A stretch of DNA of 26,141 nt from positions 1 through 26,141 of IMG/VR virus record IMGVR_UViG_3300025671_000443. One strand, written 5' to 3'. Of this stretch, positions 1,362 through 4,313 are shown piece after piece. The notes beneath the pieces are model-generated. The model was not told the DNA's origin and did not search any database. It saw only the letters and a list, made by a program, of their open reading frames with translations. Numbering within the stretch: position 1 is the first letter of the stretch; the number at the start of each line of letters is the position of its first letter. The DNA is from a virus. Position numbers and translations under genes: made by a program.

Positions 1362-1613
1362 ATGATTGAAGTCATCGCCGCAGTGGCCGGCGCATCTATT
1401 TCCGTTGCCGCAATGGGGGCAATGGGATTCAGCAGAAAATCCGATGAGGCTAGAGACGCCGTTGTGCGTTTGACCTCGGCGGTCGAACACATCGCCACAC
1501 AGCTTGAAGTGCTGCACACTGACATTAAAGAAGATCGCAAGGAATTTTTCTCACGCCTTAATACCGTTGAACAAAGGGTCTCTAAGCTGGAAGTGCGTCC
1601 GCCATCTTGTTGA
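1362..1613 (+). CDS. small membrane protein with coiled coil, holin/XhlA-like candidate
   Basis: An N-terminal hydrophobic, glycine/alanine-rich stretch (residues 2-25, IEVIAAVAGASISVAAMGAM) is followed by a charged helix. Residues 26-78 show regular hydrophobic spacing (VVRLTSAVEHIATQLEVLH, then FFSRLNTVEQRVSKLEV), a coiled coil. One membrane segment plus coiled coil, 80-90 residues and a position just before an endolysin fit phage hemolysin XhlA-like or accessory holin proteins. Sequence alone does not prove a lysis role. The next gene starts three bases after the stop. Confidence 0.6.
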   Translation: MIEVIAAVAGASISVAAMGAMGFSRKSDEARDAVVRLTSAVEHIATQLEVLHTDIKEDRKEFFSRLNTVEQRVSKLEVRPPSC

Positions 1614-1616
1614 CCC

Positions 1617-1757
1617 ATGGACATTATCAATCACCCAGCATTTTGGATAGTTTTAGCAGCAGCGTCTGAGCTGATTGCTCTGTCACCGCTTAAGGACAAC
1701 AGCATAATCCAGCTGGTGTTCCACGCCCTGCGCTCGATCAAAGGAAAAAAGCTCTGA
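1617..1757 (+). CDS. small membrane protein, 46 aa, zero-frame product of a probable frameshift gene
   Basis: ATG 1617 lies in the sequence GACCCATGG, and the frame stops at TGA 1755-1757. Residues 8-24 (AFWIVLAAASELIALSP) form one probable membrane helix. The C-terminal part is amphipathic and basic (IIQLVFHALRSIKGKKL). Position between the coiled-coil membrane protein and the endolysin suggests a holin or other lysis protein. The last codons contain the slippery string A AAA AAG in the correct zero-frame register, followed by a hairpin. Ribosomes may therefore shift into the -1 frame and make a 124-residue fused product. Confidence 0.65.
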   Translation: MDIINHPAFWIVLAAASELIALSPLKDNSIIQLVFHALRSIKGKKL

Positions 1758-1779
1758 TCAGCTTCGGCAAGCCGGGCTG
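1745..1779 (+). promoter_or_regulatory. probable -1 programmed ribosomal frameshift site
   Basis: Bases 1745-1751 are A AAA AAG with AAA and AAG as zero-frame codons of the gene at 1617, the most efficient known bacterial -1 slippery heptamer. A stem-loop begins seven bases later: CAGC 1759-1762 pairs with GCTG 1776-1779, and CGG 1765-1767 pairs with CCG 1772-1774, with a CAAG loop and a small internal loop. The zero-frame stop is at 1755-1757. The string AAAGGA (1740-1745) just upstream could act as an internal Shine-Dalgarno-like stimulator. The -1 frame is then open for 79 codons. Confidence 0.6.
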
Positions 1780-1990
1780 GCAACGTCGCTTAGAGCAAGC
1801 CATCCGCCGATGGTGGTTTGAGCTGACGTTGCCAGGCAAGCTGGATAAAGCCGAAGCGGATTGGCACGCCGCGCAACCGGCGGAGCCAGAGCCGGTGATC
1901 ACGCATCATCCAGTTGACGATAACCTGCAAACAGGCGAAAGCCGCAAACTTGGCGGCGCAATGGAGATCAAAGCGCCATGGTCAAATTAA
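1754..1990 (+). CDS. 78-codon frame without a standard start, probably made as -1 frameshift extension
   Basis: This frame is open from 1694 to TAA 1988-1990 and has no ATG, GTG or TTG until codon ATG 1961, near its end. The only near-start is CTG 1754. Its product (LISFGKPGWQRRLEQAIRRWWFEL, then a polar Pro/Glu-rich tail ending KAPWSN) is not low-complexity and looks coding. A Trp/Arg-rich amphipathic helix could lie on the membrane. The frame is exactly -1 to the gene at 1617, so frameshifting at 1745-1751 would fuse it to that protein's membrane helix. Alternatives are CTG or ATC initiation coupled to the upstream stop, or a sequencing indel. It overlaps the endolysin start by 13 bases. 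Confidence 0.55.
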   Translation: MISFGKPGWQRRLEQAIRRWWFELTLPGKLDKAEADWHAAQPAEPEPVITHHPVDDNLQTGESRKLGGAMEIKAPWSN

Positions 1991-3036
1991 CCGACCTGTT
2001 TAAATATTACAAGCACGGCACACCGCATCAAATGGCGGCAGTATCTGAGCTTGAAGCGGAGCTGATGAAAGCAGCGCCGCAAATATTTGATCGCAACCAA
2101 GCGTGGTACAAGACTTGGCAAGCCGGCGGCAAGCTGCATAGCTATGACGCAGCGGTAACGCTAATCAAGGAGTTTGAAGGCGTACACCTATCGGCATATC
2201 CAGATCCACTGCATGGATGGGATGTTGCAACAATTGGTTATGGCACTACGCGTTATCCAAATGGCGGTAAGGTGCAACGCGGCGATAAGATCACCGTTAT
2301 AGATGCCAATGAGTTGCTAGAGCTTGAGGTTGAACGCATTGCAGAAAAGCTACGCAGCAGCGTGCCTTTTTGGGGTGCAATGAGCGGCAACAAGCAATGC
2401 GCATTGATCAGCTTTGCCTACAACCTTGGCGCTGGTTTTTACGGCAGTGCAGGATTTGAAACCATTAGCAAACAACTAAAGGATAAAGATTGGGGTGCAG
2501 TGCCCGCTGCAATGGAGCTATACCGCAATCCAGGCACCAATGTAGAAGCTGGTTTATTGCGCCGCCGCCGTGCTGAAGGCCGCCTGTGGGCTGGCGAGCA
2601 GCAGCAAGGTCCAGCCAAGCTGACGCCAAACAGCTCATTTTCCTCGCGTATTACGCCACATGTGCAGCTTGGTGAATTTGCGCTATGGCAAGAAGCACGT
2701 CGCTTTGACCATCAATACCAAGTAGATACTGCAGCAGAACTTGCTGCATTTCTTGAACGCGCACGCGTCAAGTTTGGCGGCAAAGCTGTTGTGATCACAA
2801 GTGGCTATCGACCGCGTGCTATCAATAAAGCGGTAGGTGGTTCCAGCGGCAGCGAGCATTTATACGATGCACCAAATGTTGGCGCGGTTGATTTCTACAT
2901 TCGTGAAGTCAACATTAACCATGTGCAAGATTGGTGCGATGCAAACTGGCCGTATTCATTGGGCTATGGCGCACCCAAAGGTTTTGTGCATCTCGGAATA
3001 CGAAGCGGTCGCCCGAAGGTACGATGGGACTACTGA
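1978..3036 (+). CDS. endolysin: GH24 muramidase fused to M15-type peptidase
   Basis: This protein would cut peptidoglycan twice. Residues about 57-208 are a T4/P22-type lysozyme (GH24). Glu67 in EFEGVHLSAYPD, Asp76 and Thr85 in ATIGYGTT match the spacing of T4 lysozyme Glu11, Asp20 and Thr26. NLGAGFYGS and LLRRRRAEGRLWAGE are further family landmarks. Residues about 225-352 resemble zinc-dependent M15 peptidases: SGYRP near 274, His294 in SGSEHLYD, Asp305 in GAVDFYI and His338 in GFVHLGI are the likely zinc ligands. The first 50 residues are a helical extra segment. There is no signal peptide, so export by a holin is expected. It follows the small membrane proteins, forming a lysis cassette. 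Confidence 0.9.
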   Translation: MVKLTDLFKYYKHGTPHQMAAVSELEAELMKAAPQIFDRNQAWYKTWQAGGKLHSYDAAVTLIKEFEGVHLSAYPDPLHGWDVATIGYGTTRYPNGGKVQRGDKITVIDANELLELEVERIAEKLRSSVPFWGAMSGNKQCALISFAYNLGAGFYGSAGFETISKQLKDKDWGAVPAAMELYRNPGTNVEAGLLRRRRAEGRLWAGEQQQGPAKLTPNSSFSSRITPHVQLGEFALWQEARRFDHQYQVDTAAELAAFLERARVKFGGKAVVITSGYRPRAINKAVGGSSGSEHLYDAPNVGAVDFYIREVNINHVQDWCDANWPYSLGYGAPKGFVHLGIRSGRPKVRWDY

Positions 3037-3364: not shown

Positions 3365-3407
3365 TTGCCATTCTTGCTGGTGATTTTTACACATCCCAGC
3401 CAGGCAA
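3365..3407. terminator. possible bidirectional hairpin between convergent genes
   Basis: TTGCC 3365-3369 can pair with GGCAA 3403-3407, and GCTGG 3376-3380 with CCAGC 3396-3400. The loop is long and contains five T residues (3384-3388). It lies at the meeting point of the HNH gene and the sigma gene and overlaps the latter's last codons. The long loop and asymmetric interior make this a weak call. Confidence 0.3.
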
Positions 3408-4313
3408 ACTCTCCACGTGTTCCCTACTTTTATTATGGTTGGTCCCAAGAGGAGTGCCTGCCAAGGGATTGCCTATCAGCATACGAAGGCGATTGATACC
3501 ACGTCGCTGCAGTTGGCACATATGCGTGCGTGATACGCCCATTTGTTTTTCTAGCTCAGTCCATGGCACGGGGTTCCTACCATTACGTGCATAGATAATT
3601 TCACGCGTGCGTTCGTCTAGATATTCTTCGCAATGATCGCGTAATACTTCAAGCTGCCAATCGTATTCAACATCGTATTGTGATTCATCTGCAATCAAAT
3701 CCAAGATGCAAGATGCATCATCTTGTGATGGCTTATCAAGGCTGGTTACGCGATATGCCTGTTTGAGCGTGTCAGAAATAACCTGCGGCGTTACCTCAAG
3801 CACTGCCGCCAATTCGCTCATGGTTGCAGTGCGTCCATGCTCTTGCGCAAATGCCTGTGCAGTTTTGTTTAGCTTTACCAGCATGTCATGCACACCAAGT
3901 GGTAGGCGAATGATCGGGTCATATTGCACCAATGCGCGACCAATAGCCTGCCGAATCCACCAATAGGCGTAGGTGCTGAACTTGTAGCCACGTGTGTAAT
4001 CAAAAAGCTCTACAGCACGCGAAAGGCCGATATTACCCTCTTGGATAAGATCAAGCATGTCAAGCGTTTGCGTGTTGCGTTTGCTGTACTTCCGCGCTAC
4101 ATGCACCACAAGTTGGAGGTTGGATTGCACAAACCGCTGCCTTGCGCGTTCACCACTACGCAACTCACGACGTTCTTGCGTTGTTAAAGGTCTTTCAAGA
4201 TCCTTTAATTCTTTCCACTTTGCAACACGACGCCCAAGTTGTATCTCTTGTTGCGGCGTTAGCAGTGGATAACGCGCGATATTGTTCAAGTAGTCGCCAA
4301 TAGCGTCAGACAT
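3387..4313 (-). CDS. RpoD-like sigma factor of cyanobacterial group-2 type
   Basis: It directs RNA polymerase to promoters. Residues 3-33 are region 1.2 (DYLNNIARYPLLTPQQEIQL). Region 2 is about 58-128: DLIQEGNIGLSRAVELFDY and YKFSTYAYWWIRQAIGRAL are diagnostic. Region 3 is about 135-210 and region 4 about 225-278. At 308 residues and without region 1.1 it matches cyanobacterial group 2 sigma factors, not ECF sigmas. The -10 helix keeps the WW pair and Gln of E. coli Q437 but has Gly for T440. The -35 helix reads GVSRTHMCQLQ where RpoD has VTRERIRQIE, so E585, R586, R588 and E591 equivalents differ. About 30 extra residues follow region 4. A phage copy may redirect host polymerase to phage promoters. 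Confidence 0.93.
   Translation of the reverse strand: MSDAIGDYLNNIARYPLLTPQQEIQLGRRVAKWKELKDLERPLTTQERRELRSGERARQRFVQSNLQLVVHVARKYSKRNTQTLDMLDLIQEGNIGLSRAVELFDYTRGYKFSTYAYWWIRQAIGRALVQYDPIIRLPLGVHDMLVKLNKTAQAFAQEHGRTATMSELAAVLEVTPQVISDTLKQAYRVTSLDKPSQDDASCILDLIADESQYDVEYDWQLEVLRDHCEEYLDERTREIIYARNGRNPVPWTELEKQMGVSRTHMCQLQRRGINRLRMLIGNPLAGTPLGTNHNKSREHVESLPGWDV

Follow-up and report, generated by a model that had tools for sequence, protein, structure and literature searches.

In tailed phages, programmed frameshifting is known chiefly in the genes of tail and other structural proteins. The genes of the tail-assembly chaperones, which are not membrane proteins, lie between the tail-tube and the tape-measure genes. 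In these chaperones (G/GT of lambda and E/E+E' of P2) a programmed -1 frameshift adds a C-terminal extension (PMC3091744), and it is for tail proteins that -1 frameshifting in tailed phages has been described (PMC3091744, PMC6316719). The locus examined here differs, as it encodes a predicted membrane peptide from a gene beside the endolysin; its location is not between the genes for the major tail protein and the tape measure. Frameshifting in Escherichia coli dnaX involves a Shine-Dalgarno-like element before the slippery site and a hairpin after it. The slippery heptamer of dnaX (tau/gamma) is given as A_AAA_AAG in the available part of a review on frameshifting (PMC5009743). Our locus shares with dnaX this heptamer and the use of one start for two products with a common N-terminus; the differences are that the frameshift product of dnaX is the short one whereas here it is the long one, and that we found no conserved equivalent of the dnaX stimulators.

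Two forms of one holin are known from lambda: S107/S105, holin and antiholin, arise from two start codons and differ by two residues at the N-terminus. This is a parallel in terms of timing, but the difference here would be a 79-residue C-terminal tail added by frameshifting. PBSX (XhlA/XhlB) and SPP1 (gp24.1/gp26) have two small membrane proteins beside the endolysin, one with a coiled-coil-like partner, and both holins of this XhlA/XhlB kind work jointly with the endolysin (PMC6316719). In XhlB and gp26 there are two membrane segments, whereas one is predicted for the short product of our locus; gp24.1 and XhlA carry their membrane helix at the C-terminus, and the second holin of SPP1 is formed via internal starts and not by frameshifting. 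Within its available part, the frameshifting review has no mention of holin or endolysin, and its listed mentions of lysis are references on RNA phage lysis genes (PMC5009743); a search of titles and abstract openings in the openly accessible literature identified no phage lysis gene described as being organised in this way. Programmed frameshifting would have a new use in a conserved frameshift from which a membrane protein of the lysis region gains a second form; the timing of cyanophage lysis matters for carbon turnover in water.

The locus occupies positions 1617-1990 of a viral DNA of 26,141 nucleotides (the window), and all its features are on the plus strand. The short gene (1617..1757) encodes a candidate holin of 46 amino acids with one predicted membrane helix at residues 9-25, judged from hydropathy and charges. 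Close to its end is the slippery heptamer AAAAAAG (1745..1751), read as A_AAA_AAG in zero-frame register, and one codon past the heptamer is the zero-frame stop TGA (1755..1757). The -1 frame (1745..1990) adds a tail of 79 codons after the Lys-Lys and ends at the TAA at 1988-1990; the fusion has 124 amino acids (45 + 79). All these elements had been listed in an earlier, sequence-only reading and all are present in the sequence. The gene directly upstream (1362..1613) encodes an XhlA-like protein of 83 amino acids with an N-terminal hydrophobic segment and a coiled coil, a probable partner; downstream follows the endolysin (1978..3036; phrog_28234, E 5.7e-142), with phage lysozyme and M15 peptidase domains (PF00959 and PF08291), the ATG of which, at 1978, is inside the end of the tail and precedes the tail stop. 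The heptamer AAAAAAG has four matches in the window, with 3.05 expected, and the site thus means little alone: its register and its conservation in relatives decide. In the public records that we inspected the frameshift site is unannotated: each half appears as a hypothetical gene of its own, or one half is missing, and the frameshift corrects this annotation.

Relatives were gathered from viral contigs and phage records, resulting in 209 loci with the short protein that correspond to 153 distinct segments. In 137 of the 153, the heptamer is present at the same codons and is followed by a homologous -1 frame; heptamer, register and -1 frame are all kept in these, and the core claim of the sequence-only reading passes the comparison of relatives that this reading had proposed. 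Most have A_AAA_AAG (122 segments) or G_GGA_AAG (13 segments), so that a canonical X_XXY_YYZ heptamer is in zero-frame register in 135/153 segments; the two further variants are A_AAA_AAC (L214) and G_AAA_AAG (L030). The G_GGA_AAG type, which has no long homopolymer, is characteristic of the S-EIV1-type clade. Isolates with the arrangement are S-CBS1, S-CBS3, KBS-S-2A and S-EIV1 as well as the T7-like phages S-B28, WH11-B and 7B11-B. The 16 segments without heptamer are also without tail: these include MedDCM-OCT-S37-C6-like podoviruses, the podoviruses P60, S-CBP42 and S-SRP01, the siphovirus S-CBS4, a Microviridae genome and L161. The Lys-Lys is encoded by AAA AAG in 123/123 scored tailed segments and in 0/11 tail-less ones. 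The segment counts are not phylogenetically independent; the pattern nonetheless spans phages with differing neighbour genes. Two segments (L201:2629-2910 and L202:1015-1248) combine G_GGA_AAG with tail types that elsewhere follow A_AAA_AAG, which looks like an exchange of tails at the heptamer between the two heptamer groups.

The tail evolves as a protein: dN/dS is 0.135 (the clade of the window), 0.196, 0.357 and 0.122 in four clades, third codon positions vary most, and the residues directly past the heptamer belong to the selected tail. In five segments (L084, L181, L126, L089 and L090) a stop shuts the -1 frame one to four codons before the heptamer, and here the heptamer is thus the only entry to the tail. 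The sequence-only reading had gone too far in stating that the -1 frame lacks any usable start: there is a TTG at 1829, and GTG and ATG are found deeper in (close relative L001). However, a protein begun at these internal starts would lack the initial third of the conserved tail, and such starts differ from clade to clade, which makes them poor alternatives to frameshifting; in KBS-S-2A there is no ATG, GTG or TTG ahead of tail codon 54. None of the relatives examined has tail and short protein in one continuous frame, and no tail start is conserved. The termination signal of the short product is conserved too: the zero-frame stop is one codon past the heptamer in 126/136 segments and directly past the heptamer in the other 10. 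The -1-frame leucine that overlaps this stop is encoded by a codon that creates the stop in all 126 of 126 cases; elsewhere in the tails, CTT and CTC make up 229 of 809 Leu codons. As the immediate stop is conserved, the short product appears to be selected as well, so that selection seems to act on both products. Judged by these comparisons, there is little room for doubt that the -1 programmed frameshift at A_AAA_AAG is real, and two products are strongly supported; we infer a role in lysis, from gene neighbourhood and weak similarity, and the job of the tail. The relatives bear out the core claim, that a gene beside the endolysin yields, by -1 frameshifting, a short membrane protein along with a form extended at the C-terminus: Synechococcus viruses seem to produce a tiny membrane protein in two versions, from a gene next to that of the enzyme that cuts the cell wall.

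A conserved stimulatory RNA structure could not be assigned. A stem-loop at 1759..1779, proposed from the sequence as the stimulator, can be drawn with a spacer of 7 nt, but the 61 nt past the heptamer fold no better than shuffled sequences (z = +0.73), and of 32 distinct close relatives only 11 preserve one of its pairs and 21 another; the hairpin was rejected as a general stimulator on both grounds. Across 111 distinct sequences, the 50 nt downstream of the heptamer have a mean z of -0.63; folding these identified no single structure common to all and none in the clade of the window. The T7-like clade has a plausible stem that starts several bases past the heptamer. In the KBS-like clade (L126 and relatives) strong stems are predicted about 14 nt past the heptamer (z -4.0 for L126), possibly clade-specific stimulators at an unusual distance.

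The short protein matches phrog_22542 (E 3.3e-29), a family with no known function; PHROG and Pfam searches returned no described holin family and only one further PHROG, phrog_15106, which is also of unknown function. It has a slightly acidic N-terminus and a basic flank C-terminal to the helix, and residues P7, A15, S17, E18, I20, L25, K26, N28 and S29 are invariant in ten diverse members. The 83-amino acid upstream protein matches phrog_26178 (E 2.7e-41) and, weakly, phrog_937, annotated as hemolysin (E 0.002); an XhlA-like gene is directly upstream in 106/142 segments and was not found in 36/142. The location of the short gene is past the tail genes and ahead of endolysin or packaging genes. 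In the window, S-CBS1, S-CBS3 and KBS-S-2A, the next functional gene is the endolysin; the T7-like members, in which the gene occupies the position that in T7 belongs to holin gene 17.5, have the small terminase or other packaging or nuclease genes next, and in S-EIV1 the next annotated gene is on the opposite strand, so the endolysin is not always the neighbour. With an XhlA-like gene as its usual upstream neighbour and endolysin or packaging genes downstream, the gene probably encodes, in its short form, a holin or a holin partner, the latter as the small member of an XhlA/XhlB-like pair. From the endolysin adjacency, the 17.5-like place, the XhlA-like gene upstream and the parallel to PBSX and SPP1, a lysis role for this gene is rather likely. 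The assignment to a lysis region by the sequence-only reading thus agrees with gene neighbourhood and weak similarity, but no match to a known holin family backs it. The endolysins of these phages have a common N-terminal segment resembling LFRYYKxLPHQxAA before the lysozyme domain (1978-2110 in the window), and this segment is also present in an S-SRP01 frame that has no tail. Past the endolysin and an HNH-like frame, the minus strand of the window has a frame (3387-4313) that resembles an RNA polymerase sigma factor and is annotated likewise in S-CBS3.

In the structure model (mean pLDDT 79, pTM 0.36; the underlying alignment was without rows from phage records), the tail of the long form consists of a 32-residue helix and, after it, a segment that contains two short strands; its sequence ends in the conserved C-terminal peptide LQTGxSRxLGGxMxIxAPW. 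Searches of Pfam and of solved structures returned no family and no useful structural relative for the tail. Based on the positive-inside rule, the basic flank past the helix suggests that the tail is probably cytoplasmic; in S-B28 the charge bias for this topology is weak. For the same reason, the possibility that the long form is a spanin was set aside; weak Rz-like matches were found only in the upstream coiled-coil genes.

We propose that most ribosomes would stop at 1755 and produce the 46-residue membrane peptide, with one helix and a cytoplasm-facing basic stretch, as the main membrane component, and that a fraction of ribosomes would slip by -1 on A_AAA_AAG and produce the 124-residue protein with the same helix and a cytoplasmic tail. 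Within a cyanophage lysis cassette, the short form would act as holin or as the small partner in an XhlA/XhlB-like pair. The minor long form would co-assemble with it via the helix common to both and would determine at what time or place the lysis complex fires, acting either in an antiholin-like manner or by recruiting a partner via its C-terminal peptide. To this explanation as a whole, a frameshift, a holin-type short form and a minor long form that tunes the lysis complex, we assign a probability of roughly 0.6. That the long form regulates or recruits the lysis complex is suggested more tentatively than the holin identity of the short form, at somewhat less than even odds. More speculative still is a lysis-timing switch, in which the ratio of short to frameshifted holin, set by a heptamer common to picocyanobacterial sipho- and podoviruses, might control burst time. 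The frameshifted membrane protein is probably relevant to host lysis by these viruses.

Frameshift and both proteins could be real and serve a membrane-anchored adaptor with a role other than lysis, such as assembly, packaging or host takeover. Consistent with this are the lack of a match to a holin family and the recurrence of part of the C-terminal motif in proteins that do not adjoin lysis genes: tails of the T7-like clade match the C-terminal segment ETGxFGxEGWSIxI of the cyanomyovirus T4-GC 410 proteins (phrog_6464; hhalign probability 96%, E 3e-9), and these proteins carry the motif in one frame (L177:1267-1662, L178:1267-1665 and L179:1273-1809). The T4-GC 410 proteins, however, have a different N-terminal part and no adjoining endolysin, and here the tail is reached by frameshifting; the tail type of the window itself has no significant match to them. 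We consider an adaptor unlikely, with the gene beside the endolysin in several siphoviruses, the podovirus copies at the presumed T7 holin 17.5 place and an XhlA-like gene usually upstream.

Another possibility is that the frameshift is real and mainly serves translational coupling: shifted ribosomes would reach the endolysin start and set its output, and the tail protein would be a by-product. In 121/125 segments the tail contains the start of the following gene; in the window this is the endolysin, the ATG of which comes before the tail stop. However, the tail is under selection at the protein level, and its C-terminal motif is kept where a terminase gene is next (T7-like members) and where the next gene is on the opposite strand (S-EIV1). 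Coupling to the endolysin may contribute; it explains neither the selection on the tail nor S-EIV1, and as the main function it is improbable.

That there is no frameshift at all is hardly credible. In favour of this view, the annotation of S-CBS3 has a separate gene with its start within the tail, and the A run in the window is six long. However, an independent second gene translated after reinitiation at a weak internal start, an indel from sequencing or assembly, and RNA polymerase slippage are all rejected on comparative grounds: 137 distinct segments, drawn from many contigs and isolates, have the break at identical codons, the 13 without a long homopolymer (G_GGA_AAG) exclude an indel or slippage in the A tract as a general explanation, no start codon is common to the clades, and the selected tail includes the residues that follow the heptamer.

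Among the relatives without tail, the short protein of P60 (L172:1456-1686) and S-CBP42 (L174:1435-1668) runs in its own frame, with no frameshift, into a different, charged C-terminal extension. In a scan of bacterial and archaeal genomes, the short protein turned up in just four metagenome-assembled contigs; these are variously labelled and probably represent stray phage sequences. In the Microviridae genome SD_MC_44 (MH572431.1), an unannotated open reading frame (L091:2849-2986) encodes a relative of the 46-amino acid protein, without heptamer or tail, and is a candidate for the lysis gene of this single-stranded DNA phage.
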